Part shown: positions 2 through 62,448 of the stretch, piece after piece | Numbering within the stretch: position 1 is the first letter of the stretch | Layout of the letters: the number at the start of each line of letters is the position of its first letter | Source: Sphingopyxis sp. BE259 | GTDB lineage: Bacteria; Pseudomonadota; Alphaproteobacteria; Sphingomonadales; Sphingomonadaceae | Direction: 5' to 3' | NCBI RefSeq assembly: GCF_031457495.1 | Contig: NZ_JAVDWM010000001.1 | Location: forward strand, 3,522,001-3,586,000 | Length of the DNA stretch: 64,000 nt | The notes under the pieces: generated by a model | Database searches by the model: none | Told to the model about the DNA's origin: nothing | What the model saw: the letters and a program-made list of their open reading frames with translations, nothing else | Program-made: the position numbers and the translations under genes

Positions 2-1966
2 CCGCTCGACCACGTCCTGTCGATGTGGACGATCGCGGTGCTGATGATGGTCACGCTGGCCATCGTCGCACACAGCGTGCCAATGGCGTGCATCCTGTTC
101 ATCGCCCCGGTCAGCCTGTCAGCGGCCGCGGCGCTGGTCCGCGCCGGGGCGCCGCATCTGGCCGCTGTTGCGCTGGTTGCCGGATTGCTGCTCTGCCTGT
201 TCTGCGTCCGCTTTGCCCAAAGTCATATCCGCTATCGCCGCGCCGAAGAAACGCTGCACGAAAAGACCGAAACGGTCAGCCTGCTGCTGCGCGAATTCGA
301 AGAAACCTCGGCCGACTGGTTGTGGCAGACTGACAACAGCCGCCGCCTCGTTCATGTCTCGCCGCGCCTCGCCTATGCACTGGGCGCGACCGCCGAAACG
401 CTCGAAGGTGTGCCGTTGTTGCAGGCGCTGTCGGGCGATGCCTGGGACACCGGACTGTTTCCCAAAAGCCTGCACGAAATGGCCGAACGGATGAAGCGGC
501 GCGAGAGCTTTTCGAACCTGATCGTCCCGGTCACGATCGGCGGCGCACCGCGCTGGTGGGAGCTGTCGGCGTCGCCGCGCCTCGATGAAGCGGGCAAGTT
601 TCTCGGTTTCCGCGGCGTCGGGTCGGACGTCACCGAACAGCGCGCGACCGCCGAACAGATCGCCAAGATGGCGCGTTTCGACAATCTGACCGGCCTGCCC
701 AATCGCCTCAGCCTCAACGAAGATCTGGCGCGCGCGCTGACCAATGCGATCGACGCCAAGTCGCGCTGCGCGATGCTGATGATCGATCTCGACCGGTTCA
801 AGGCGGTCAACGACACGCTGGGCCACCCGGTCGGTGACAAGCTGCTGGCGCAGGTCGCGGCGCGGCTGAAAGGATTGATGGAACGCGGCATGACCTGCGG
901 GCGGCTGGGCGGCGACGAATTCGCCGTGGTGCTCCACAATGTCCCGTCGGCCGATGCCGCAGAAGAACTGGCGCAGCGCCTGATCACGACGATCAGCCGT
1001 CCCTATGTCGTCGACAATCACCAGTTGTTCGTCGGCGCCAGCATCGGCTTTGCGATCGGGCCGCAGGACGGCGCAACCGTCGAAACGCTGACCCGCAACG
1101 CCGATCTTGCGCTCTACAAGTCCAAGGATCGCGGCGGCAACGTCGTCGCCGGATACGTCGCCTCTCTCCACGCCCAGGCCGAGGAACGGCGGGTGATGGA
1201 ACAGGAATTGCGCGGCGCGCTCGAACGCCGCGAATTCGAACTTTATTACCAGCCGGTGGTGATCGCAGCCGACGGCACGCTGAACGGCTTCGAAGCCCTG
1301 ATCCGGTGGAACAACCAGAAACTGGGCAATGTGTCGCCGGGCCGTTTCATCCCGCTGGCCGAAGACGCACGGCTGATCTCGCCGATCGGCGAATGGGTGC
1401 TGCGCACCGCGTGCCACGAAGCGATGAAATGGCCGTCGAACCTGAAGGTCGCGATCAACGTGTCGGCGGACCAGCTCACCGATCCCAATTTTGCCTCGGT
1501 CGTCGTGTCGGCGTTGGCGCAAAGCGGGCTGCCCCCGCAAAGGCTGGAGATCGAAGTCACCGAAAGCGTGTTCCTGCGCGACGGCGGTGGTGCGGCCCAG
1601 CTGCTCGATCAGCTGATCGGCCTCGGCATCCGGCTGTCGCTCGACGATTTCGGCACCGGCTATTCGTCGCTCGGTTATCTACGCAAGACGCAATTTTCGA
1701 CGATCAAGGTCGATCGCAGCTTTGTCGTCGGTGCCGCCAAGGGCAGTATCGAATCGATCGCGATCATCCGCGCCGTCGTCGCGCTTGCCGACAGCCTGGG
1801 CATGTCGACGACCGCCGAGGGCGCCGAAACCGAGCTGGAGGTCGAAACGATCCGGGCGATGGGGTGCAGCAATATCCAGGGCTATTATTACGGCCGCCCG
1901 ATGCCCGCGACCGACGTGCTCGCACTATTCCGTTCGACCGAATCCGCGTCGAGCGCCGCAGCCTGA
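2..1966 (+). CDS. PAS-GGDEF-EAL cyclic-di-GMP signalling protein (5' end cut by window)
   Basis: A bifunctional-type cyclic-di-GMP enzyme. The frame is open to the first base, so the ATG at 23 may be internal; residues here are counted from it. Hydrophobic segments occupy about residues 1-65, followed by a PAS-like domain (about 95-210). The GGDEF domain has an intact GGDEF motif (residues 296-300) but no RxxD inhibitory site just before it. The EAL domain has EALIRW, the NVS and EVTES motifs, DDFGTGYSSL and KVDRSF, so phosphodiesterase activity looks possible. The signal sensed by the PAS domain cannot be told. Which activity dominates is not decidable from sequence. It reads alone, with no gene overlapping its 3' end. 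Confidence 0.93.
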   Translation, partial: PLDHVLSMWTIAVLMMVTLAIVAHSVPMACILFIAPVSLSAAAALVRAGAPHLAAVALVAGLLLCLFCVRFAQSHIRYRRAEETLHEKTETVSLLLREFEETSADWLWQTDNSRRLVHVSPRLAYALGATAETLEGVPLLQALSGDAWDTGLFPKSLHEMAERMKRRESFSNLIVPVTIGGAPRWWELSASPRLDEAGKFLGFRGVGSDVTEQRATAEQIAKMARFDNLTGLPNRLSLNEDLARALTNAIDAKSRCAMLMIDLDRFKAVNDTLGHPVGDKLLAQVAARLKGLMERGMTCGRLGGDEFAVVLHNVPSADAAEELAQRLITTISRPYVVDNHQLFVGASIGFAIGPQDGATVETLTRNADLALYKSKDRGGNVVAGYVASLHAQAEERRVMEQELRGALERREFELYYQPVVIAADGTLNGFEALIRWNNQKLGNVSPGRFIPLAEDARLISPIGEWVLRTACHEAMKWPSNLKVAINVSADQLTDPNFASVVVSALAQSGLPPQRLEIEVTESVFLRDGGGAAQLLDQLIGLGIRLSLDDFGTGYSSLGYLRKTQFSTIKVDRSFVVGAAKGSIESIAIIRAVVALADSLGMSTTAEGAETELEVETIRAMGCSNIQGYYYGRPMPATDVLALFRSTESASSAAA

Positions 1967-2130
1967 CGGCGACCAAGCGAAGCTGCCGCGCGACGAATTG
2001 ACCAGCTTAACAAAAGGTTCCGCCGCTCACCGCACCCGCGGCGCGGCTCGTCGCGTGGTGGGTGGTGGCGCGGGCAAAGCATGGCAAGGACGATCCAACG
2101 CTTGAACACAAGCATCGGGGGTCGCATTTC

Positions 2131-2706
2131 ATGCCGCATCGTAACTTTCTGGCTGCCGCCATTGCGTCCGTGATGACGCTTGCCAGCCTGCTCGTCAGCG
2201 CCCCGGCGGCGGCGCGCGATTACCTGCAATGCGTCCCCTTTGCCCGCGCCGAATCGGGCGTCGACATTCGCGGCGATGCCAAGACCTGGTGGGCGCAAGC
2301 CGCCAGCGACTATGCCCGCGGCGACGAACCGCGCGAGGGCGCGGTGATGGCGTTCGCCGGGACCCGCGGTATGCCGCTGGGCCATGTCGCGGTGGTCAAG
2401 AAAATCGTCAGCGACCGCGAAATCCGCATCGACCATGCCAATTGGTCGCCGATCAACGGCCGCCGCGGCCAGATCGAGCGCAATGTCCGCGTCGTCGATG
2501 TCAGCGATGCCGGCGACTGGAGCATGGTCCGCGTGTGGTATGCGCCGATCGGCGACTTGGGCCTGCGCGCCAATCCGGTGCAGGGTTTCATCTACGCGGG
2601 CGGCACGCCGAACAAAGCACCGAGCTTCAAGGCACCGGTGTGGGCGCAGAACGACTGGAAGCCCGGCAACGGCCTGGAAGTCGTCGTCGCCTCACTCGGC
2701 CAGTAA
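2131..2706 (+). CDS. Secreted CHAP-domain protein (putative peptidoglycan amidase/endopeptidase)
   Basis: 191 residues. The ATG at 2131 is preferred over an upstream in-frame ATG at 2062 because it starts a clean signal peptide (hydrophobic to about residue 24, cleavage near APAAA-RDY) and follows a GGGG stretch. The mature part begins with YLQCVPFARAESG, the usual start of a CHAP domain with its catalytic Cys (C34), and has the partner His in PLGHVAVV. CHAP proteins cleave peptide or amide bonds in peptidoglycan, here in the periplasm or outside. No cell-wall-binding domain is visible. The family call is good; the exact bond cut is unknown. Confidence 0.85.
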   Translation: MPHRNFLAAAIASVMTLASLLVSAPAAARDYLQCVPFARAESGVDIRGDAKTWWAQAASDYARGDEPREGAVMAFAGTRGMPLGHVAVVKKIVSDREIRIDHANWSPINGRRGQIERNVRVVDVSDAGDWSMVRVWYAPIGDLGLRANPVQGFIYAGGTPNKAPSFKAPVWAQNDWKPGNGLEVVVASLGQ

Positions 2707-2731
2707 GGGCCGAACAACCTCCTCAAATTAG

Positions 2732-2807
2732 CGTCATTGCGAGCGCAGCGAAGCAATCCAGGGCGGTGTACGCCACTCTGGATTGCTTCGCTGCGCTCGC
2801 AATGACG
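2732..2807. repeat. Intergenic palindromic repeat, family A copy 1
   Basis: A long inverted repeat with arms beginning CGTCATTGCGAGCGCAGCG and ending with its complement, and a short spacer that holds GGCGGTGTACGCC. The same arms recur at 35893-35988 (diverged) and 51202-51276. It lies between a + strand gene and a - strand gene that converge here. It could fold in RNA and act as a bidirectional terminator or mRNA stabiliser, but there is no T-tract. Confidence 0.85.
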
Positions 2808-2815
2808 AATGAAAG

Positions 2816-3100
2816 TTAGGCTTCCTCGCCCGCATCCTTGGCCGCGTCGCCGTCGCTCGCCGCCGCATCCTCGAACCACGCTTCGACCTCGCCCGACAGC
2901 TTGATCGTCATCGGCTGGCCAAAACGGTCCTTCGACTTGCCCGCGGCGACGCGGATCCACCCTTCCGAGATCGAATATTCCTCGACGTCAGTGCGTTCCT
3001 TGCCCTTGAAACGGATGCCGATGCCGCGCTGCAGCACCTCCATGTCGAAATGGGGCGAGCGCGGGTTGGTCGACATATGGTCGGGGGGGGTATCGGTCAT
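2816..3100 (-). CDS. DUF3297 family protein
   Basis: A 94-residue soluble protein matching the DUF3297 family, which is small, common in alpha- and gammaproteobacteria and of unknown biochemical role. Recognisable segments are STNPRSPHF near residue 10, QRGIGIRFKGKERTDVEEY and SEGWIRVAAGK in the middle, and an acidic alanine-rich tail. The start is supported by GGAAG seven bases upstream. That ribosome site lies beside the T-tract of the terminator of the TonB receptor gene upstream on the same strand, so it is probably transcribed by read-through or from its own promoter. Confidence 0.9.
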   Translation of the reverse strand: MTDTPPDHMSTNPRSPHFDMEVLQRGIGIRFKGKERTDVEEYSISEGWIRVAAGKSKDRFGQPMTIKLSGEVEAWFEDAAASDGDAAKDAGEEA

Positions 3101-3112
3101 GGTGCTACTTCC

Positions 3113-3150
3113 AGAAAAAATGATGGCGCGGCCCTAGCGGGACCGCGCCA
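3113..3150 (-). terminator. Rho-independent terminator of the TonB receptor gene
   Basis: On the minus strand a GC-rich stem (TGGCGCGG-T-CCC, loop GCTA, GGG-CCGCGCCA, one unpaired base) is followed by TCATTTTTTC. It lies just downstream of the receptor stop at 3174 and just upstream of the DUF3297 start. Confidence 0.75.
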
Positions 3151-3173
3151 CCATCGTCAATGGAAAGGGGTTT

Positions 3174-5501
3174 TCAGAACCCGGCTTTCAGCGTCACAAA
3201 AAACTGCTGTGGCGCTCCGGCGAGCAGGGTCTGGTTGTCGCCGCGGTTGGCAAAACCATTGGTGCCGATCGTCGACACATATTCCTTGTCGAACAAATTG
3301 GTCGCATTGACCTGCACCGAAATCCGCTCGTTCAGCCGGTAACCGATGCTGGCGTCAACGATCACAAAGCCGCCGACCTCGGCATCATTCTCGAACGAAT
3401 AGTATCGCTTGCCGGTGTAATTGGCGCCGAGCCGCGCGAAGAACGTGCCAGTGTCCCACGTAATTTCACCCTTGGCGAGGTGACGCGGTGAATTGACCAC
3501 TGTCTTGCCGGCGGTTGCCGCGACGGTCGTCCCCGCGGCGTTGACGACATCGTCCTGATATTCGGAGTTGTTATAAGCATAAGAGGCGAACAGCGACAGG
3601 TCCGGGGTGACCCGGAACGTCCCCGCCGCCTCGACGCCCCACGAGCGCACATCGCCGACATTCTGCAGGATCGCCGGATTGCCCTGAATCCCCGACCCAT
3701 TGGCAAAGGCGATGATGCAATCCTTGAAATCGACATAATAGCCCGCGATCACGCCCTGAAAGCGCGACGCCTTGGTGCGGAAGCCGAGTTCATAAGTCGT
3801 CGAGGTTTCGGGTTTCAGGTCAAGCGCGTCGAACCCCGCCTGCGTCGTCGCGAACGGCCCGCCGGTCGCCGAGCTTTCGAAGGCGCGCATATTTTCGGTG
3901 TAGCTGGCGAACACCTCATTATCATCGTTCAGGCGGAACAGCACCCCGGCCTGCGGCAGGAACCAGTCCTTCGCCTCGGTGCGCCCCGCGGCGAGACCGC
4001 CGCGGACGACCGGGGTCGCCAGATTGGTGACGCGCAGCCCCTTCCACCCCGCGTTGATCTGGACCTGCCCCAGATCGAGCGTGTCCTGCACATGATATTG
4101 CAGCGTCTGGGTGTTGAAATCGAACTCCCACTGGGTCGCCAGCGGATCCTTCGGGAAGGTCAGGCTGCCGCGACTCGGCGCCCCGGCGGTGTCGGCCAGG
4201 CCATAGAAACGGCGCGCCTGATTGAAGTCATTATCCTCATACCACATGCCGAGCTCGATCTGGTTGTCGCCAAGCGTAAACAGGCTGCTCGCGACGATGC
4301 CATAGCGCTCGATCTCATATTCGGTCGTGCGGATCGTGATCGGCGCGCCGCCGGGGGTGGTGACATAGGGGGTGAACCACAGCCCGCGGCCCTTGTTGCC
4401 ATGGTAATAACCCATCGCGTTCAGCGTCCAATATTCGTTCAGCGGCGCCTCGACCCCGACCCCCGCAAGCCAGTCCTTGCGGAGCCCCGACGCGTCATAA
4501 TAGGCATCATCGGCCGTCGTGATCGGCGCCGGAAAGGCTTCGCCCACCCCGGCAAAAGGCGCGGTGAACACGGCACCCAGCGGCAGCGAGCCGTTGGCGA
4601 CGCCGGTGTTGAACGCAGCGCGCGCGACCTGGTTCTGATAGATTTTGGCGACCCGCACCGCGGTGTCCCAATCCTTGGCGAAATTGTCCCACTGGTAACC
4701 CAATCGCCCGATCATCCCGGCGCTCAGATCCTGATAGTCGTTTTCGGCGCGGTCCGAATAGTTGACGAAGCCGAAGAACTGGCCGTCGCCAACCGGCTGG
4801 GCGATCCGTGCGTTCACCTGATGCTGGCGCTGGACGCCGTCGCCCTTCCATTTGTCGGCATCCTGCCATGCATAGCTCAGCGCCAGACGCGGGCCGTTCG
4901 CGCCGATCGCGCCGCTGTCGATCCGCACGAACGCGCGCTTGGTGTCTTCGCTGCCATAGGTACCCGACGCCTCGACGCTGAACGTTTCGGCGGGTTCGCG
5001 CGAGAAAAATTCGATCGTGCCGCCCAGATTGCTGCTCGACGCCGCCGCCAGCGAGCCCGCGCCCTGCGCGACTTCGACCCGGCCGACATTTTCGCTGATG
5101 ATCGCGCGGCTGATGTGCAGCCCGTTGTGATTGCCATAGCTCATGTCGCCGAGCGGCACCCCGTCGAGGGTGAAGCCCAGTTGCTGCTGCGCGAAACCGC
5201 GGATCGAGATGCGCGACGACCATTCATAGGCGCCGAACGGATCGGCGGCCTGAAAATTCACCCCCGGCAGCTTGTCGATGGCTTTCAGCGGGCTGATCCC
5301 CGCCACTTCCAGCGCGATGTCGGCGGCGCCAATCTCTTGCACCTGCCGCGCTTGCCCCTGGCCGAGCACGACGATCTCTTCGACCTCGCCGCCCGCATCG
5401 ACGGCCTCGCCCGCGGTTTCGGCCGCCAGCCCCGGCGTCGCCGCCAGCGCCAAGATCAATGCGGCGCCGCCCCGCAGGCGGTTCCTGAACTCCATCGTCA
5501 T
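3174..5501 (-). CDS. TonB-dependent outer-membrane receptor
   Basis: 775 residues from the ATG at 5501, chosen because AGGGGGA sits 8 bases upstream and a signal peptide follows directly; an upstream start at 5531 would spoil the signal. A TonB-box-like segment (VEEIVVLGQ) is followed by a plug domain (INFQ..SSRISIRGFAQQQLGFTLDG, then GRVEVAQGAGSLAAASSSNLGGTIEF). The remainder is a beta-barrel ending in the aromatic FFVTLKAGF typical of Bam-inserted proteins. These receptors import siderophores, vitamins, sugars or oligomers using TonB-ExbBD energy. No neighbouring transport or catabolic gene hints at the substrate. Confidence 0.92.
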   Translation of the reverse strand: MTMEFRNRLRGGAALILALAATPGLAAETAGEAVDAGGEVEEIVVLGQGQARQVQEIGAADIALEVAGISPLKAIDKLPGVNFQAADPFGAYEWSSRISIRGFAQQQLGFTLDGVPLGDMSYGNHNGLHISRAIISENVGRVEVAQGAGSLAAASSSNLGGTIEFFSREPAETFSVEASGTYGSEDTKRAFVRIDSGAIGANGPRLALSYAWQDADKWKGDGVQRQHQVNARIAQPVGDGQFFGFVNYSDRAENDYQDLSAGMIGRLGYQWDNFAKDWDTAVRVAKIYQNQVARAAFNTGVANGSLPLGAVFTAPFAGVGEAFPAPITTADDAYYDASGLRKDWLAGVGVEAPLNEYWTLNAMGYYHGNKGRGLWFTPYVTTPGGAPITIRTTEYEIERYGIVASSLFTLGDNQIELGMWYEDNDFNQARRFYGLADTAGAPSRGSLTFPKDPLATQWEFDFNTQTLQYHVQDTLDLGQVQINAGWKGLRVTNLATPVVRGGLAAGRTEAKDWFLPQAGVLFRLNDDNEVFASYTENMRAFESSATGGPFATTQAGFDALDLKPETSTTYELGFRTKASRFQGVIAGYYVDFKDCIIAFANGSGIQGNPAILQNVGDVRSWGVEAAGTFRVTPDLSLFASYAYNNSEYQDDVVNAAGTTVAATAGKTVVNSPRHLAKGEITWDTGTFFARLGANYTGKRYYSFENDAEVGGFVIVDASIGYRLNERISVQVNATNLFDKEYVSTIGTNGFANRGDNQTLLAGAPQQFFVTLKAGF

Positions 5502-5624
5502 CGACAAATCCCCCTTGTCCCGCCGCCACAATGGCGCGGTGGTCGCGGGGGCTTTAGGGAGGCGATATTGCGGCGCTGCGGCGAAGGCGTGACGCGGCGA
5601 TGACGGTAATAAGAAGTTTCGGCG

Positions 5625-6053
5625 TCACCCCATGTCGAGCTGCTCGGCGACCGGATAGAGATCGCAATTCTCGCGCTCGATCCGTATGCCCAGCACGTTG
5701 AGCACGACCTCGGTTTCGCTACAAAAGCCCGGCCAGTCGTCGGCGATCCGCGCCGCGGTCCATCGCGCGTCATACGCCGCAAAATCCTGCGCGATATGCC
5801 CCATTTCGCGCACAAACTCACCCGCCAGCGCGACGACCTCGGCATTGCCGCTCGCCTTCAACCGCGGATAGAGAATCCAGTCCTCGCACTTCAAATGGCG
5901 CAGCAGCGTATCGCGCAGCATCCCGCGCACCGATTCGAGTTCGGTCGGACGCGGCGCTTCGGGGCCGCGGATCAGGTCCATCAACAATTTTGAGAGCGTG
6001 GCAAGCGCGGCATGCTCGGCGCGCAGCCGCCGCATTTCGGGACCAATAGGCAT
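5625..6053 (-). CDS. Hemerythrin (HHE) domain protein
   Basis: 142 residues, predicted all-helical. It shows the repeated pattern of hemerythrin-like cation-binding domains: EHAAL near residue 14, RHLKCEDWILYPRL near 52-65, a His in the third helix (EMGHIAQDF), and a last helix RIERENCDLYPVAE. Such domains bind a di-iron centre and serve in oxygen, NO or iron handling. It stands 123 bases upstream of the TonB receptor on the same strand, so co-transcription is possible but unproven. Confidence 0.85.
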   Translation of the reverse strand: MPIGPEMRRLRAEHAALATLSKLLMDLIRGPEAPRPTELESVRGMLRDTLLRHLKCEDWILYPRLKASGNAEVVALAGEFVREMGHIAQDFAAYDARWTAARIADDWPGFCSETEVVLNVLGIRIERENCDLYPVAEQLDMG

Positions 6054-6225
6054 GGATCGCCTCTCTAAACTTCGGTCCCTTCATCGCTGTCCTATGGGAC
6101 CGGAATGAAAAGACGGTAAACGCGCATTAGCCTTGATCGGCCCGGGCCGCACCGCTCGGCGGCGGCTTAGGCCATTATCCGTGCGCCGTCCGGCAATCCT
6201 CCCTGTGGCGAAGCCATGGGGAGGA

Positions 6226-7383
6226 TCACACCGCCTCTCCCTCGCCCTCGGTCTCCTCAGTCTCCGCCGCCCCCGCCGCCTTCGCCTTGCGCGCCAACCG
6301 CCGCGAAGGCGCCTTGCGCACCGCCGCGATCCCGTCATCCGCCGGCATCGTCAGCGGCATCGTCAGCGGCATCGTCAGCGGGATCGTCAGCGGGACCGCC
6401 GGGACCGGCCGTCCCTCCGCCTCGGCCGCCGCGATCCATTCGTGGTACGCCTCCGGAATGTCGCCCCCCGCCGCCACCCAGCTCGCCTCGCCGCCGATGC
6501 GCTGCACCGGGTCGTCGTCGATCGGGCCCGGGTACATTTGCAGCGGCCCGTAATAGGGCGAATCATGCTCGCCCAGCGACACCAGCGGCACCGCGGGATC
6601 GCCCAACTGCATCGCGACCGCGCCGAAATCATCCTCCGCGACCGCCGCATCCATCGCGCGCTGCCGCTCGGCCAGCGCGAGCAGCGCCGCGCCGATCTCG
6701 GCCTCCGCCTGCGCATCGAGCGCCGCCCCCTCGAACCCTTCGATCACCCCCGCCGCCGCATCTTGTCCGCCGTGCACGTCGCCGCCCGTCGCGGACCCGG
6801 CCAAGGGACCATGGATCACCGTCCGCACCGTCGTCGTCGAAGCCTCGGCGACCGCCCCGGCGGCTCCGGCGCTGGCGCCCTCTCCCACTTCCGCATGTCC
6901 TGAGGAGCCGCGCAGCGGCGTCTCGAAGGACCCCGCCGTCGCCCGCGTCGAAAAATAGTTGATCGTCGTCCGCTTGCCCCCCGCATCCTGCCCGTAATGG
7001 CGCAGGCAGAACATCAGCAGCGCATCATTGTGCCGCCGCCGAAAGCCCATCAGCTTGCCCGCCACGAACACCGGCACCAGATAGCCGTCGATCGCGCGTT
7101 CGAACGCAATGTCCTTCAACCGCGCGACCCCGAAATCCAGCGCCGCCTCCCACGCCCGCCGAAAGCTCTCCGCACCGGGCGCGCGCCGCAGCGTATAGCA
7201 GTTCACCTGCGCCATATTCACCATCGCCGCCGCGCGGGTGACCGACCCGGTATCGGCCAGCGCCGATATGAACGCCTTCTGCCGCTCGGGCGTCCACCCG
7301 TCGTGCCGATATTTGCGCGGCACCGGCGTAAAGTCAGGCAGCGGCGGCCGCGCCTCCTTCGCGATCGGGGTGCGGTTCTGCAT
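6226..7383 (-). CDS. HTH-domain protein of unknown function with a low-complexity tail
   Basis: 385 residues. The N-terminal third looks like a DNA-binding module: a helix-turn-helix-like stretch (ISALADTGSVTRAAAMVNM, residues about 38-57) followed by a region rich in Arg and aromatic residues (about 75-140), a layout that recalls terminase small subunits and similar HTH proteins. The middle is alanine/glycine-rich. Near residue 330-345 a PLTM tetrapeptide repeat comes from a 12-base tandem repeat. The C-terminus is charged (KAKAAGAAETEETEGEGE). No partner gene is adjacent. I recognise the architecture as that of uncharacterised sphingomonad proteins and cannot assign a role. Confidence 0.75.
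   Translation of the reverse strand: MQNRTPIAKEARPPLPDFTPVPRKYRHDGWTPERQKAFISALADTGSVTRAAAMVNMAQVNCYTLRRAPGAESFRRAWEAALDFGVARLKDIAFERAIDGYLVPVFVAGKLMGFRRRHNDALLMFCLRHYGQDAGGKRTTINYFSTRATAGSFETPLRGSSGHAEVGEGASAGAAGAVAEASTTTVRTVIHGPLAGSATGGDVHGGQDAAAGVIEGFEGAALDAQAEAEIGAALLALAERQRAMDAAVAEDDFGAVAMQLGDPAVPLVSLGEHDSPYYGPLQMYPGPIDDDPVQRIGGEASWVAAGGDIPEAYHEWIAAAEAEGRPVPAVPLTIPLTMPLTMPLTMPADDGIAAVRKAPSRRLARKAKAAGAAETEETEGEGEAV
6344..6391. repeat. 12-bp tandem repeat inside the HTH-protein gene
   Basis: Four consecutive 12-base units, GGCATCGTCAGC three times and then GGGATCGTCAGC. They encode the repeated PLTM/PLTI tetrapeptides on the minus strand. The unit is a multiple of three, so copy-number change keeps the frame. 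Confidence 0.9.
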
Positions 7384-9800
7384 GTCTTTCCTCCTGCTTG
7401 GCCCGAGTGAAGTCGAGCAATCAAACCGAACAGGATATGTCAGACGGAAATTTTGTAGGAAAGCATTTTTGTTCTATTTATGTTCCCACTTGCCCTTTGA
7501 CAATTCTTCGCCTCCCTTGTGAGTGCAGATTCATGCCAATCAAACCCGCTTATTGGCAAACTGCGGATAACGTCCGTTGGCATATATTTAATGTGCATAA
7601 CAACGAACCATATGGGGTAGTTTCTGGATGCGCATTTCCTCAATCAAGGTTGAAAATCAGCCGCCGATTCAGCATTTTGATGTCAGCGACCTGTCCGACC
7701 TAGTCGTAATTGCTGGACCCAATGGGGTCGGCAAGACACGGCTGATTACCAGCCTTCTTAACGCGTTTAGAGGGTCCCCTACTGGGGTAGAGCTGATAAT
7801 CGAGGCAACTTCCAAAGACGAGGAAAGCAAGTTTGGAAGTAAAACTTTGTCCACCTCGGGGAACGGAATTCAGCGATTGATGCAGGTAATGCAAGCAAAT
7901 AAGCTCCGGCGAAACTATCAAAGCGGCGTTCTATATTTTGAAAGTGGACGTTCAATTCAACAGGTTAAAGCGCTATCGTTCGCCTTTGATTTTGCTGATC
8001 CCTATATTGAAAACGTATCCTGGGATTTACCTATGCAGGGGCTTGCTGGTAGGTGGCAAGACACGCAACATGCAATATTTAAAAAGATACAGAACCAAAA
8101 AACATCTATCGCTAACCGAGCAATAGAGCTTCGTGGTCAAGGCTACGATAGCATGAATCTCCAGTTCTCTGATCCTCTTGCTCCTTTTAAAGACGCATTC
8201 TTTAAAATGCTCGGTCCTAAGAGACTAACACGCGCGGATCTAAGCTCACAAAATTTGATGTACGAAGAAGATGGAGAAGAAAGATCGATATCTACACTAA
8301 GTAGTGGAGAACGAGAGGTATTGAACGTTACATTTGATTTCATATTGCGGAATCCGAACGATTGCATAATATTTTTTGACGAACCTGAGGTGCATCTTCA
8401 TCCAGAATTATTGATTCGAATGGTCGCAACCTTACGTTCTATAGGAAACAATAATCAGTTTTTCTTTCTTTCTCATTCGCCAGATCTCGTTAGTAGCTCA
8501 TTGGAAGACAGCGTGGTATTTTTGACCCCACGGAAAAATGATGGCTCAAACCAAGCGATAATTGTAAAACCGGGGGATGCAACGACCGAAGCGATGCATC
8601 AATTGGGACATTCGGTCGGAGTGCTCTCACTAGGTCGAAAAATTGTGGTGATCGAAGGCACCGATGCAAGCCTCGACAAGCGAACCTACTCTCAAATTTT
8701 GGCAAACAGATTCCCAGATCTAGTCCTCGTTGCAGGCGGCGGGAAACAGACAATAGAAAATTTCAGTCACTTGGTAACAACTGTACTCGATAAGGCCGTT
8801 TGGGGTGTCGATTTTTTCATGCTAGCCGACAGAGATTCCGGTCAGGTAATTTCTTCTTCAGGTAAAATGGAGCAACTACCTAGATACCATTTGGAGAACT
8901 ATTTTCTTGATAGTAAAATACTTGCAGCATGTTTTGAGACAATTGAAGATGATGAATCTTGGTTACGAGACCCTGCAGCGATTGAAAATTGCCTCGAGAA
9001 CCTAGCTCTCGAGAAGATCGGATATGCTGTAGCTCTTCGTGTATCGCACAAATTCCGTCAGCTATGCGGCAATGTAACTCTCATGCCGAGCGGCGTCCAT
9101 GATTTGGATAGAGCGGCTTTGATCGCGTCAATTTCGGAAAGGGCAGAAACGGAGCAGCTCCGCAATGCAGCAGCTCTAGACTTAACAGCCATCCGCGATG
9201 CGACAGAAAGCACTTACGACGAATTTCTAACATATATCACGGGCGGAACAGGTAGATGGAAGATCGACGTGCCCGGAAAGCCGATATTTAAGACGTTCTG
9301 CGGTCGGGCGAATATCCAAGTTGGCCGACTCAAAAATCTCTATCTCAAAGCTGTCGACGCGCGGGAGGCCGATACCTTTGACGAGCTAAACTCGATTTTT
9401 TCAAGGTTTTCGGCTGTTTCTTCAGCATCGACGCAAGAGTGCGTTGGGTCTCCCGATCCACTGAATGAGCCCAGTTTGGGAGACTAGCGCACAACCGCTA
9501 TTGCGCGGTTATTGATACCAAGAGGAGATTTGGCTCGAATTGGCGCCATGTTAATCGGTGAGCCTACTAGCCATTGCCCGACGGCGATTCGCTAGTGCCC
9601 CCCCCCTCGACCTGCCGCCTGACCAACCGCAATTTCGGGTCGCTGACCTCAGCGGGCATGCGGCGGGCCTGGCGACCCAAGGCCTTCGGTGATCGTCAGT
9701 TGATGCAGCTGTCGGGCACGCTCTTGCGGTATCGCACCGGTGGGTTGCTGACGTTCACGATGACCTCCCACTTCGTTGTAGGCATCAGCCATGCAAATTA
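7384..9800. other. AT-rich genomic island
   Basis: Base composition changes abruptly after the start of the HTH-protein gene at 7383. The 244 bases before the ATPase gene contain long A/T runs and no ORF of note, and the ATPase gene uses many AT-ending codons unlike all its neighbours. GC-rich sequence returns after about 9590. No integrase, insertion sequence, flanking direct repeat or tRNA marks the ends, so the entry mechanism is not visible. Limits are approximate. Confidence 0.7.
7628..9487 (+). CDS. ABC/AAA-type ATPase fused to a TOPRIM/DUF4435-like domain (candidate single-gene PARIS-like defence protein)
   Basis: 619 residues. The N-terminal half is an SMC/ABC-like ATPase: Walker A GPNGVGKT (30-37), signature LSSGERE (224-230), Walker B with catalytic Glu CIIFFDEPE (246-254) and a switch His in FFLSHSPD (279-286). 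The C-terminal half has TOPRIM/DUF4435 hallmarks: VVIEGTDASLD with Glu343, a GGGKQ turn (370-374), MLADRDSG with D401 and D403, and the RYHLENYFLD motif (419-428). In the PARIS anti-phage system an AAA_15 ATPase (AriA) and a DUF4435 nuclease (AriB) are separate genes or one merged gene, so this could be a merged form. OLD-family ATPase-nucleases are the main alternative. The AT-rich codons mark recent transfer. It has no operon partner. Confidence 0.82.
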   Translation: MRISSIKVENQPPIQHFDVSDLSDLVVIAGPNGVGKTRLITSLLNAFRGSPTGVELIIEATSKDEESKFGSKTLSTSGNGIQRLMQVMQANKLRRNYQSGVLYFESGRSIQQVKALSFAFDFADPYIENVSWDLPMQGLAGRWQDTQHAIFKKIQNQKTSIANRAIELRGQGYDSMNLQFSDPLAPFKDAFFKMLGPKRLTRADLSSQNLMYEEDGEERSISTLSSGEREVLNVTFDFILRNPNDCIIFFDEPEVHLHPELLIRMVATLRSIGNNNQFFFLSHSPDLVSSSLEDSVVFLTPRKNDGSNQAIIVKPGDATTEAMHQLGHSVGVLSLGRKIVVIEGTDASLDKRTYSQILANRFPDLVLVAGGGKQTIENFSHLVTTVLDKAVWGVDFFMLADRDSGQVISSSGKMEQLPRYHLENYFLDSKILAACFETIEDDESWLRDPAAIENCLENLALEKIGYAVALRVSHKFRQLCGNVTLMPSGVHDLDRAALIASISERAETEQLRNAAALDLTAIRDATESTYDEFLTYITGGTGRWKIDVPGKPIFKTFCGRANIQVGRLKNLYLKAVDAREADTFDELNSIFSRFSAVSSASTQECVGSPDPLNEPSLGD

Positions 9801-9840
9801 GTCGGGCGGCATTACCCACAATCCATCCCCCTCATCACCC
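9488..9840. other. Gap after the ATPase gene; no convincing gene
   Basis: The first 100 bases are moderately AT-rich and belong to the island; the rest is GC-rich. A + strand ORF at 9574-9801 and a 29-codon - strand ORF at 9696-9785 (MPTTKWEVIVNV...) have no recognisable domain and no strong ribosome site. I see decayed sequence rather than a gene. Confidence 0.5.
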
Positions 9841-10227
9841 ACCGACGATGCCGCTCAGCTACTGGTCGATCGCCATAGCATCGCCCGATACTGGTCGGCG
9901 GGCTGCGCGCGGATGTTCGGCTATTCGGATGCGGTGATGATCAGGGCGACGCTGGACCGCATCATCCCGCCGACACTGCGCGCGGGACACCGCAACGGAC
10001 TGGCGGCGGCGATGGCGACGCAGACGCTCGACCGCGAATCGCCGGTCGGCAATATCCCCGCGCTCCACGCCGACGGTGCCGTGCGGCGGCACCCGTTCCG
10101 GCAGGTTCAACTGTGCGACGCCTTTGGCGTCGGCACCGGGGCGGTCGTCACCTTTCTGCCCGCTACCCCACCCGGCGGCGGCAGCGGGCTGCGCGATGTG
10201 TTCGATCTGCCTGACGGGGCGGGGTGA
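9841..10227 (+). pseudogene. Truncated PAS-domain protein remnant
   Basis: Reading frame 1 from about 9841 encodes a typical single PAS domain: AAQLLVDRHSIARYWSAGCA, then RMFGYSDAVMIRATLDRIIP, LRAGHRNGLAAAMATQTL, and NIPALHADGAVRRHPF. This matches PAS proteins reading W-x-GAE-RMFGY...LD-IIP-LRA-H. An in-frame stop at 9799-9801 precedes it and no start codon exists before the ATG at 9913, which falls inside the conserved core. The 5' end is therefore lost. The C-terminus ends normally at a TGA. Loss may have come with insertion of the adjacent AT-rich island. Confidence 0.65.
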
Positions 10228-10277
10228 TGCGCTGTCGCGAAAGGACGTCGTCCTCGGATACCGGTCACCACCTGTAA

Positions 10278-10356
10278 CCGTTCGTGTCGAGCGAAGTCGA
10301 GACACGCTTGGCGCGCGCATGCCTTCGCGTGTCTCGACTTCGCTCGACACGAACGG
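10278..10356. repeat. Intergenic palindromic repeat, family B copy 1
   Basis: Near-perfect inverted repeat with arms CCGTTCGTGTCGAGCGAAGT...GACACG and the complement, separated by about 20 bases. The same arms occur at 62375-62448 and, with a decayed right arm, at 16334-16413. Confidence 0.88.
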
Positions 10357-10412
10357 AAAGGGAGGCGCGAACGGATAGGGAGGTGCGAGCGGGAAAGCGG
10401 GCCGCACCCAAC

Positions 10413-10442
10413 GCAAAACCGGCGGCCTTTGGGGCCGCCGGT
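10413..10442 (-). terminator. Rho-independent terminator of typA
   Basis: On the minus strand a 10-bp stem ACCGGCGGCC / GGCCGCCGGT with a short loop is followed by TTTTGCG. It starts just past the typA stop codon at 10450. Confidence 0.75.
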
Positions 10443-10449
10443 CTGTATC

Positions 10450-12282
10450 TTATGCCGCTTCTTTCTTGCGCGATGCTTTCTTGCGCTCGTGCGGGTCGAG
10501 CAGGCCCTTGCGGATACGGATGTTTTTCGGGGTCACTTCGACCATTTCGTCATCGTCGATGTACGCGATCGCCTGTTCCAGCGTCATCCGCTTCGGCGGG
10601 GTCAGGCGGATCGCGTCGTCCTTGCCGGTCGAACGGAAGTTCGTCAGCTGCTTCGACTTCATCGGGTTGACTTCCAGGTCATCGGGCTTGGCATTTTCGC
10701 CGATGATCATGCCTTCGTACAGCGCCTCGCCGGGCGACACGAACAGGATGCCGCGCTCTTCGAGCGGGCCCAGGGCGTAAGCCACCGCTTCGCCATTGCC
10801 GTTCGAGATCAGCACGCCGTTCTTGCGGCCTTCGATCGGACCCTTGTGCGGGCCATATTTTTCGAACAGGCGGTTCATGATCCCGGTGCCGCGCGTGTCG
10901 GACAGGAATTCGCCGTGATAGCCGATCAGGCCGCGCGACGGGCCGCTGAAGGTGATGCGCGTCTTGCCGCCGCCCGACGGACGCATGTCGGTCAGGTCGG
11001 CCTTGCGGATCTGCATCTTCTCGACGACCGTGCCGCTATGTTCGTCGTCGACGTCGATGACGACGGTTTCATAAGGTTCGGTGCGCTTGCCATTTTCGTC
11101 TTCGCCGAACAGCACGCGCGGGCGGCTGATGCCGAGTTCGAAGCCTTCGCGGCGCATCGTTTCGATCAGCACGCCCAGCTGAAGCTCGCCGCGGCCGGCG
11201 ACTTCAAAGCTGTCCTTGTCGGCACTTTCGGTGATGCGGATCGCAACATTGGTTTCGGCTTCGCGGAACAGACGGTCGCGGATCATCCGGCTCGTGACCT
11301 TGCTGCCCTCGCGGCCCGCCATCGGCGAATCATTGACCGCAAAGCGCATCGACAGCGTCGGCGGATCGATCGGCTGCGCGGCGATCGGCTCGCTCACGCT
11401 GGTGTCGGCGATGGTGTTGGCGACGGTCGCCAGCGCCAGGCCGGCGATCGCGACGATGTCGCCCGCGCGCGCTTCCTCGACGGGAACGCGCTCGAGCCCG
11501 CGGAACGCCAGCAGCTTCGACGCGCGGCCGGTCTCGATCACCTTGCCGTCCATGTCGATCGCGTGGATCGGCTGGTTGACCTTGATCGTCCCCGACTGGA
11601 CGCGCCCGGTCAGGATGCGGCCAATGAAGTTATCGCGGTCGAGCAGGGTGGCGAGGAAGGTGAACGGACCGTCTTCGGGCAGGCCGGGGGTGGGCACGTG
11701 GCTGACGATCGTCTTGAACAGCGGTTCGAGCGTGCCTTCACGCGCGTCGGGGCTTTCCGAGGCATAGCCGCCGCGGCCCGAGGCGTAGAGGATCGGGAAG
11801 TCGAGCTGTTCGTCATTCGCTTCGAGCGCCAGGAACAGCTCGAATACTTCGTCGAGCACTTCGGCGGCGCGCGCGTCGCTGCGGTCGATCTTGTTGACGA
11901 CAACGATCGGCTTCAGGCCGAGCGCGAGCGCCTTGCCGGTGACGAACTTGGTCTGCGGCATCGGGCCTTCGGCGGCATCGACGAGCAGGATGACGCCGTC
12001 GACCATGCTCAGGATCCGCTCGACCTCACCGCCGAAATCGGCGTGTCCGGGGGTGTCGACGATGTTGATGCGGGTCAGGTCGGCGCCTTCACCCCACTCG
12101 ACGCTGGTGCATTTCGCGAGGATCGTGATCCCGCGTTCCTTTTCGAGGTCGTTCGAATCCATCGCGCGTTCTTCGACGCGCTGGTTGTCGCGGAAGGTGC
12201 CCGACTGGCGGAAAAGCTGATCGACGAGGGTGGTTTTTCCATGATCGACGTGAGCGATTATGGCAATATTGCGCAGAGACAT
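10450..12282 (-). CDS. typA: Ribosome-associated GTPase TypA/BipA
   Basis: 610 residues, the usual length. TypA/BipA is an EF-G-like translational GTPase that aids ribosome assembly and stress or low-temperature growth. The G domain shows AHVDHGKTTLVDQL (G1, about 10-23), GITI (G2), DTPGHADFGGEVER (G3) and NKIDR (G4). Domain II, an EF-G-like domain V and the lysine-rich BipA C-terminus (RKGLLDPHERKKASRKKEA) follow. It is a single gene with its own terminator and is divergent from the cydAB regulator gene across about 185 bases. Confidence 0.98.
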   Translation of the reverse strand: MSLRNIAIIAHVDHGKTTLVDQLFRQSGTFRDNQRVEERAMDSNDLEKERGITILAKCTSVEWGEGADLTRINIVDTPGHADFGGEVERILSMVDGVILLVDAAEGPMPQTKFVTGKALALGLKPIVVVNKIDRSDARAAEVLDEVFELFLALEANDEQLDFPILYASGRGGYASESPDAREGTLEPLFKTIVSHVPTPGLPEDGPFTFLATLLDRDNFIGRILTGRVQSGTIKVNQPIHAIDMDGKVIETGRASKLLAFRGLERVPVEEARAGDIVAIAGLALATVANTIADTSVSEPIAAQPIDPPTLSMRFAVNDSPMAGREGSKVTSRMIRDRLFREAETNVAIRITESADKDSFEVAGRGELQLGVLIETMRREGFELGISRPRVLFGEDENGKRTEPYETVVIDVDDEHSGTVVEKMQIRKADLTDMRPSGGGKTRITFSGPSRGLIGYHGEFLSDTRGTGIMNRLFEKYGPHKGPIEGRKNGVLISNGNGEAVAYALGPLEERGILFVSPGEALYEGMIIGENAKPDDLEVNPMKSKQLTNFRSTGKDDAIRLTPPKRMTLEQAIAYIDDDEMVEVTPKNIRIRKGLLDPHERKKASRKKEAA

Positions 12283-12415
12283 GCGGGAACGGGCCTTGAT
12301 GGGAGGGGGCAGCGCCCGGAGCGCCGCGAAACGCCGCGCCCTTAACAGAATGGGTGCTGCGGCGCAACATGATTGCCGAAGTTGGCAAAGTTGTCACTGG
12401 GTCAACCCGCCAACA

Positions 12416-16333: not shown

Positions 16334-16413
16334 CCGTTCGTGTCGAGCGAAGTCGAGACACCGTGAAGGCGGGTGCGAGTGATGGACATCTCGAATTCGC
16401 TCGATGCGAGCGG
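16334..16413. repeat. Intergenic palindromic repeat, family B copy 2 (decayed)
   Basis: The left arm CCGTTCGTGTCGAGCGAAGT is intact. The right arm is altered to CTCGAATTCGCTCGATGCGA, so pairing is imperfect. It lies just upstream of the nucleosidase gene. Compare 10278-10356 and 62375-62448. Confidence 0.75.
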
Positions 16414-19571: not shown

Positions 19572-20408
19572 TCATCTGAACTTGCATATATATTCGATGT
19601 CGGTTGTCGACATCATTCCCGGTACGGGATCGCAGTCATCAAGCTTGAGAATTCGGTTGCCTAGGCTGATCCGGGCACGCGCCAGAGCATCCATCGAAGC
19701 ACGCATTACTGTCGTCGTGCGCCGCTGCCAGTTGTCGATGGCCACAAGAGCGCCGTCGGGATCGGATCTTATGGTAACGACCAATCGGCGGGCTGGGCCA
19801 TAGACGCGTTCCAGCGACACCTTTAATTTCTGATCTTTGACATCCGGAATACAGTAGATGATTCCCTCAAAGTTCACGAGCTCGGGATCAATCAGGGGGC
19901 GGCCTGAGCGTCTCGGCGCAGCGTCCGGCATCGTCGGCACGATATAGATCGGCAAATACGACTGTTGAAATCCATCATCCAAGATAACACTGGCCTGAAT
20001 GACGGACATATATACGCCATTTATATCGCGAACTTCGGTTGCTGGTCTACTAAGACACAATCCCTTACCTTCCGATGCCGAAACACCTTGAACTACGACA
20101 GTGCGGGAGCGAACGTCCTTTTCCCATTCTTCGAGGGTGAACAATGACACCTCGTCGTTCCCCGTTAACGCCGCTTTCGCGTCTGCGATCAAACGGCTCC
20201 AAGTCCCATCCAGATCGGCAGTCTGTTCGTCGGTCAGCACTTCCGGCTGCTCGATCCCTGGCTTCTCCGAAATCTTAAAAGGCAAATTGCGAAGGTTGAT
20301 ACGGAGCATTGGATCGGCACTTTCTGCTGCCGTCGTGGTCTGCGCGAGACCGTCCGGAATCAGCAAGAGCGAAGCGAGCGCTACTTGCCACAGGGCCACC
20401 CACCGCAT
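19572..20408 (-). CDS. Secreted protein of unknown function
   Basis: 278 residues from the ATG at 20408, which follows GGGAGG; a longer frame to 20453 runs into the gene upstream. A signal peptide (WVALWQVALASLLLIPDGLAQ) starts the protein. The mature part has no motif I recognise; it contains a few cysteines (GKGLCLSRP, IIYCIPDV, LDDCDPVPG, EYICKF) that could form disulfides. Codon use is less GC-biased than the neighbours. It follows the small membrane-protein gene by 13 bases and is probably co-transcribed with it. Confidence 0.78.
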   Translation of the reverse strand: MRWVALWQVALASLLLIPDGLAQTTTAAESADPMLRINLRNLPFKISEKPGIEQPEVLTDEQTADLDGTWSRLIADAKAALTGNDEVSLFTLEEWEKDVRSRTVVVQGVSASEGKGLCLSRPATEVRDINGVYMSVIQASVILDDGFQQSYLPIYIVPTMPDAAPRRSGRPLIDPELVNFEGIIYCIPDVKDQKLKVSLERVYGPARRLVVTIRSDPDGALVAIDNWQRRTTTVMRASMDALARARISLGNRILKLDDCDPVPGMMSTTDIEYICKFR

Positions 20409-20421
20409 TCCATCCTCCCGT

Positions 20422-20895
20422 TCAACATTTGTCGCGATAAAATAAAACAGCAATGATTGTGAACGACAGGGACAGGCTCCAAACCATATATATCCCCTGT
20501 CTGGATATGCGATCGGACAAAGCTTCGATCCGAATATTGGATTCGCTCAGCTGACTCGCAAGATCAATCCCGAACCGATAAAAGCAATATATAGACAATA
20601 TGCCGATCACAATCGATCCAGCGTACAAAATAACCTCTAGCGCCTTAACGGATGACCTCGCGTTCAGAAATATAGTAATTCCTGCAATGCAAGCCACCTG
20701 TATAGACGCCATAAACTGCAACGTCGCGATCAATGCGTCCGCCGAAGATGATTGATTAGCGAGAGTTATTGCATCGCTTGCAATAGGAAGCTCTGGCATC
20801 CATGTTGCCGATCTTGCGAACAGCCATATGACGATCGGTATACTGGGGCCGACGGCAGCGGCAACTATCCACTCGCTTACAGCTTTTGCCGGCAT
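20422..20895 (-). CDS. Small integral-membrane protein of unknown function
   Basis: 157 residues from the ATG at 20895 (MPAKAVSEW). Four hydrophobic segments are visible at about residues 8-25, 54-76, 85-108 and 135-152. A polar stretch between the last two (LASQLSESNIRIEALSDRIS) could be a short coiled coil. No family is recognised. It is upstream of the secreted-protein gene on the same strand and shares its lower GC content. The two may form one unit acquired together. Confidence 0.7.
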   Translation of the reverse strand: MPAKAVSEWIVAAAVGPSIPIVIWLFARSATWMPELPIASDAITLANQSSSADALIATLQFMASIQVACIAGITIFLNARSSVKALEVILYAGSIVIGILSIYCFYRFGIDLASQLSESNIRIEALSDRISRQGIYMVWSLSLSFTIIAVLFYRDKC

Positions 20896-21068
20896 GCTAA
20901 ACCTGACCCTTGGCAGTCTCCACCACACCTGCGCACAATCCCCACCAGCCCAATGTCATTCATATTGTCATCGGGGGGCGGTGCAAGCAATGGGAAGTGC
21001 TAGGCCATCGCGAGGCTACCGACAGGCGTATCAAGATGAAAGGCTTTCGCCTCTGCGTCGCGCGCGAG

Positions 21069-62374: not shown

Positions 62375-62448
62375 CCGTTCGTGTCGAGCGAAGTCGAGAC
62401 ACGTCTGCGCCCGCCTTCGCGTGTCTCGACTTCGCTCGACACGAACGG
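62375..62448. repeat. Intergenic palindromic repeat, family B copy 3
   Basis: CCGTTCGTGTCGAGCGAAGT...GTGTC and the matching right arm GACACGAACGG with a spacer near TCTGCGCCCGCCTTCGC. It matches 10278-10356 closely. Confidence 0.88.

Follow-up and report, generated by a model that had tools for sequence, protein, structure and literature searches.

A probable one-gene PARIS-type (AriAB) protein at a variable chromosomal site of Sphingopyxis sp. BE259

What does a lone, AT-rich ATPase-TOPRIM gene in a GC-rich chromosome encode, and could it be a one-gene form of the PARIS defence system? The question is raised by a locus of Sphingopyxis sp. BE259 (contig NZ_JAVDWM010000001.1), of which a stretch of 64,000 nucleotides (positions 3,522,001 to 3,586,000 of the forward strand; hereafter, the window) was analyzed. 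The gene lies at 7628..9487 (+), runs from ATG to TAG and encodes 619 amino acids (aa), as judged from the open reading frame (ORF) list, PADLOC, a family alignment and profile comparison. We consider it likely that its product is a fused PARIS-type (AriAB) protein. An earlier interpretation made without database searches (the sequence-only reading) had suggested a merged or novel PARIS relative. The merged part of that suggestion is borne out by a PADLOC AriAB match and an AriB-like predicted fold, whereas "novel" needs tempering, since the same AriAB profile finds the protein and single-gene PARIS fusions are already published (PMC9122126, PMC12409363). In the two-gene form of PARIS, three AriB are bound by a hexamer of AriA, which lets them go in response to Ocr or certain other phage proteins; the freed AriB dimerises and cleaves tRNA-Lys among others, and its E26A variant is inactive (PMC12409363; PMC11455837). 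Two-gene and single-gene PARIS together are given as occurring in 5.2% of genomes (PMC9122126).

The gene has 46% GC compared with approximately 65% for the window, and the 8001-9000 bin falls to 42.4%, while all but four of the 1-kb bins span 60.6-70.8%. It occupies an accessory segment with approximate edges at 7470..9569, where the homology of relatives ends at 7383-7396 or 7447-7485 and resumes at 9570-9710 (mostly 9599). The only other ORFs of at least 80 aa in this segment are two overlapping short ones of 101 and 87 aa; no partner gene is present in it by the ORF list, as the sequence-only reading had held. No distinct promoter was detected, with one sigma-70-like site against 2.0 expected.

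The chain comprises an ATPase half, a putative AriA-like sensor and motor (7628..8569, +, residues 1-314), and a TOPRIM plus helical half that is AriB-like according to a predicted model, Foldseek and PADLOC (8570..9427, +, residues 315-600). Conservation was assessed in an alignment of 45 rows, with relatives 49-76% identical to the window protein. In the ATPase half, all on the + strand, the Walker A motif GPNGVGKT (7715..7738, residues 30-37) has G30, N32, G33, G35 and K36 invariant, the ABC signature LSSGERE (8297..8317, residues 224-230) has L224, S225, S226, G227 and E228 invariant, the Walker B motif DEPE (8378..8389, residues 251-254) has D251, E252 and P253 invariant, and the switch residue His283 (8474..8476) does not vary. 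In the TOPRIM half, also on the + strand, Glu343 (8654..8656) and the outer residues of the DxD motif Asp401-Arg402-Asp403 (8828..8836) are invariant both in these 45 rows and in a 70-row alignment, A3, where Glu343 is residue 29. The LENYFLD motif (8891..8911, +, residues 422-428), in which E423 and N424 are invariant across the 45 rows, corresponds to YHIENYLLD in the consensus of the longer fusions described below. Because the key ATPase and TOPRIM residues are invariant across these 45 rows, the motifs are not chance occurrences. The complete ABC ATPase head, the TOPRIM half and the AT-rich composition were thus all found as the sequence-only reading had described them.

Profile searches place the protein with PARIS fusions. 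Pfam AAA_15 and AAA_21 match at 59.3 and 60.7 bits, above their cut-offs and above the 32 and 27 bits applied to two-gene PARIS in PMC9122126. The PADLOC AriAB profile PDLC02981 scores 198 bits (E 6.7e-59); PMC9122126 applies a threshold of 80 bits to its own fused AriAB profile, which may be a different one. Among the best 25 of 140 PADLOC rows, the next scores belong to PtuA (97.5 bits) and AriA (67.9 bits), and the OLD-like fused profiles reach 53 bits (retron I-B ATPase-Toprim) and 49 bits (GajA); no HEC-04 model is among these 25. When residues 322-619 were searched alone, the only PADLOC matches at E<=1 were AriAB (5e-24), a second AriAB profile (7.6e-4) and AriB (8.2e-4), with none from the OLD, GajA or retron models. 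The AriAB profile matched 0/14 control genomes.

Structural comparison points the same way for the C-terminal half. Because VIA on the whole model tested mainly residues 1-339, this half was folded apart, giving a predicted local distance difference test (pLDDT) score of 90.6. Foldseek returned two PDB matches at E<=0.001 for this model, both chains of solved PARIS complexes that were taken as AriB from their length and numbering; OLD-family TOPRIM domains ranked below them. In the model, the C-terminal half is therefore AriB-like, within the TOPRIM/DUF4435 fold where the sequence-only reading had placed it. Glu343 is model residue 29 and the superposition on AriB starts 6 to 6, so that its match to the AriB catalytic position is one of order. 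Together, the fused profile and the fold place this half with AriB, which argues for PARIS.

A bridge to fusions that carry DUF4435 is provided by a 698-aa Kovacikia minuta plasmid protein (L017), which shares 23% identity with the window protein across residues 180-566. Its relatives number at least 2019 at E<=1e-3 (7999 candidates scored), and the window family at least 1101 at the same cut-off (8000 candidates scored). A precomputed DUF4435 domain is present on 52/120 L017 relatives among the matches listed (counted by eye), and these relatives are taken as long single-gene PARIS fusions. Profile-profile comparison of the window family with 24 of the long fusions gave 99.9% probability (E 3.1e-35) over 575 columns at 22% identity, and the alignment is collinear through a C-terminal W....PG[KR] motif. 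The long fusions in turn align with a 25-row alignment of two-gene DUF4435 proteins, A2 (22.5%, P 9e-4), with the Glu-Gly, G.NK, D.D and IEN motifs in register; by sequence they reach solved AriA and not AriB. A separate 720-aa long fused PARIS-like protein was seen on a Lichenicola cladoniae plasmid (L016, 1947-8567), where its gene overlaps an integrase gene and a two-gene pair of ATPase and DUF4435 lies 2.6 kb beyond it.

Several results weigh against a PARIS assignment. No Pfam domain is found in the C-terminal half; DUF4435 (PF14491), which the sequence-only reading had proposed to look for beside AAA_15 and AAA_21, does not match the window protein at E<=0.1. It is likewise absent elsewhere in the same genome at E<=0.001, and only 1/45 family rows matches it (1.3e-6), whereas 45/45 match AAA_21 and AAA_15. 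The AriB superposition is loose (root-mean-square deviation 6.6, 12% identity), and with the whole-length model the top Foldseek ranks go to retron Eco8, OLD, GajA and PtuA. Sequence searches with the C-terminal half give no meaningful match in the PDB and do not reach a solved AriB. The direct comparison of the window family with A2 in hhalign is marginal (6%, P 0.006), and the A2 hidden Markov model scores family members no better than shuffled sequences, the top score being a shuffle at 5.8 bits and the best family row 0.5. Identification of AriB by sequence thus fails as a simple claim, and it is the fused profile, the bridge and the fold that carry the PARIS case. The A2 profile did not reach solved AriB by sequence either; as both it and the long fusions miss solved AriB, sequence links within PARIS appear weak in general. 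In PMC9122126, DUF4435 itself serves for two-gene PARIS and separate fused profiles serve for fusions.

Within the fusions, the window protein appears from sequence comparison to belong to a compact clade apart from the long ones, with an ATPase insert approximately 90 residues shorter. The stretch from Walker A to LSSGE measures 185-198 residues in 45/45 window-family rows and 276-279 residues in 23/24 long fusions (one being unmeasurable). In a tree of 34 proteins (21 short fusions, 12 long fusions and one OLD protein), the short rows and the long rows are each set apart by a branch (support 97/99 and 100/99). The branches between the two groups are very long (5.6 and 6.9 changes per column, the OLD row being longer still), so the depth of the tree is not trustworthy. 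No description of this clade or of its chromosomal site was found in the literature on fused PARIS and genus defence hotspots, a search outside which most subscription papers lay. Both the clade and the defence-rich site go beyond what the sequence-only reading had claimed.

The gene is located at a site that varies within the genus and often holds defence genes. Of 21 congeneric genomes, 10 have recognised defence or restriction genes in the same interval, 6 have defence-associated domains and 3 have other genes there, and in 2 the interval is empty or holds a remnant. One congeneric genome carries an OLD ATPase-TOPRIM protein at this site (L071, 9609-11261), and therefore two kinds of ATPase-TOPRIM protein use one site. 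The left flanking gene (6226..7383, -) has no PADLOC match, and its first 180 residues are found in 22/61 congeneric stretches searched. On the right lies a gene at 10450..12282 (-) that we take to be a typA/bipA-type GTPase; DNA at 11400-12379 was matched in 79/80 genomes of the genus, including the present one. Downstream of the ATPase-TOPRIM gene are a palindromic repeat and a decayed gene remnant (9570..9748, -), presumably of the rRNA pseudouridine synthase gene that many congeneric genomes carry next to typA. Elsewhere, at G000:C1:2777998-2778534, there is an intact homologue, 82% identical to the L050 protein.

Some further features of the window were observed. The repeat GTGTCGAGCGAAGTCGAGACAC occurs in five exact copies against 0 expected, with two pairs facing each other; copies are at 10278-10356, 16340-16361 and 62381-62442, resembling a dispersed element of the repetitive extragenic palindrome type. 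A short ORF at 9913-10227 (+) looks by eye like a PAS sensor fragment, which is our assumption, and 9500-10450 may hold further gene remnants. A second GC dip (51.5% in 20001-21000) covers ORFs of 293 and 168 aa (19572-20928, minus strand), the first of which matches nothing in PADLOC, and may mark a further acquired segment.

Relatives of the protein are scattered. A search of 98 relatives, 16 of which had weak partial matches, brought up no other full-length member, and there was none in 384 other genomes of the class, 397 of the phylum and 396 of the family (overlapping sets, with at most three candidates per genome scored among the rows listed). None of 195 other genomes of the order bears another PADLOC AriAB match at E<=1e-25. 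Plasmid records gave 13 matches, all below 60% identity and none covering 80%, and phage records gave none. Viral contigs yielded one relative of compact type, L015 (IMG/VR contig, 511-10114; 42% identity), whose neighbours include a serine recombinase gene at a distance of 2 kb and a family A DNA polymerase at 5.4 kb, and the genome contig scan yielded one, L013, from a Bdellovibrio metagenome-assembled genome, 2.6 kb from a DUF6119 gene. Both have 189 residues between Walker A and LSSGE, and 6/10 of their neighbours put to Pfam have no match. As these scans gave few relatives, the wider context of the family is thin.

Three other explanations were weighed. The protein could be a class 1 OLD-family nuclease, that is, a stand-alone ATPase-TOPRIM enzyme attacking DNA and no relative of PARIS; a review of OLD nucleases leaves unclear whether single-gene AriAB forms a separate OLD class or differs from class 1 (PMC10568477). 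This is unlikely: OLD-like_TOPRIM (PF20469) has no match in the window protein at E<=0.1 and does match the OLD protein L071, none of the PADLOC models for OLD, GajA or retrons matches the C-terminal half, whose only significant fold matches are AriB chains, and the whole length aligns with DUF4435 fusions. An OLD or RecF placement, which the sequence-only reading had named as evidence against itself, was not found, the family models grouping the protein with AriAB and not with OLD, GajA or RecF; the RecF profile scores 15.4 bits where its cut-off is 172.

An effector of a retron or another multi-gene system with partners elsewhere is suggested by retron PtuA, with which the ATPase half obtains its best VIA Z, and by a weak NCBIfam match to the retron Eco8 effector profile (38.8 bits against a cut-off of 250). 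It is nonetheless very improbable, as the gene stands alone in the accessory segment and 6000-12000 has no Rfam match at the gathering threshold, no reverse-transcriptase profile having been run. Gabija was also rejected, since the ORF list shows no GajB helicase gene or other second gene in the accessory segment. Least probable of all is a housekeeping ATPase without a defence role; one archaeal OLD-class ATPase is reported to function in the cell cycle (PMC12796447), whereas the present gene is AT-rich, sits at a variable site and occurs very sporadically across the sets of relatives, class, phylum and family.

On the favoured PARIS assignment, the protein would act as a one-gene abortive-infection system. 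Its N-terminal ABC ATPase would be the sensor and would form an ATP-dependent oligomer that restrains the C-terminal TOPRIM nuclease until the ATPase part was bound by a phage protein, perhaps an inhibitor of restriction. Because a fused chain cannot release its nuclease without proteolysis, unlike two-gene PARIS, the nuclease would be activated in place, the TOPRIM halves of neighbouring chains pairing to form two-metal sites with Glu343, Asp401 and Asp403. The activated nuclease would cut an essential nucleic acid, and translation and phage growth would stop; tRNA is the favoured target, at about an even chance. We infer that the shortened region between Walker A and the signature carries the sensor, and a different phage trigger is proposed because this stretch is approximately 90 residues shorter than in the long fusions. 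Tentatively, and with rather less confidence than an even chance would carry, the compact clade may be a separately evolved one-chain PARIS with its own sensor and phage trigger, in which the nuclease is activated in place by re-arrangement of the oligomer and no dimer is released. Such a protein offers a simple system for asking how a tethered AriB becomes active, and from the variable site a set of neighbouring candidate defence genes can be listed within one genus.

Among known systems, the long PARIS fusions (approximately 698 aa, AAA_15/AAA_21 with DUF4435) resemble the window protein in domain order and whole-length profile match, and share with its family LSSGE[KR]E, DEPE, EG...S.[LF]DK, G.K, D.D, YH[LI]ENY[FL]LD and W....PG[KR]; they differ in their longer ATPase insert, their separate clade and a far commoner DUF4435. 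Compared with two-gene PARIS (PDB 8ux9, 8v46), the window protein is one chain whose AriB part cannot leave as a separate dimer, and it has approximately 139 fewer residues than AriA between the Walker A lysine and the signature serine, an estimate that involves a weak Walker A alignment. OLD classes 1-3, which include GajA and the retron Eco8 effector, likewise have an N-terminal ABC ATPase and a C-terminal TOPRIM; in fold comparison their TOPRIM domains come after AriB, and the C-terminal half of the window protein is not matched by their profiles. HEC-04/IbfA is, like the window protein, a single-gene ATPase-TOPRIM protein, and it is reported to be anti-phage (PMC12111858).
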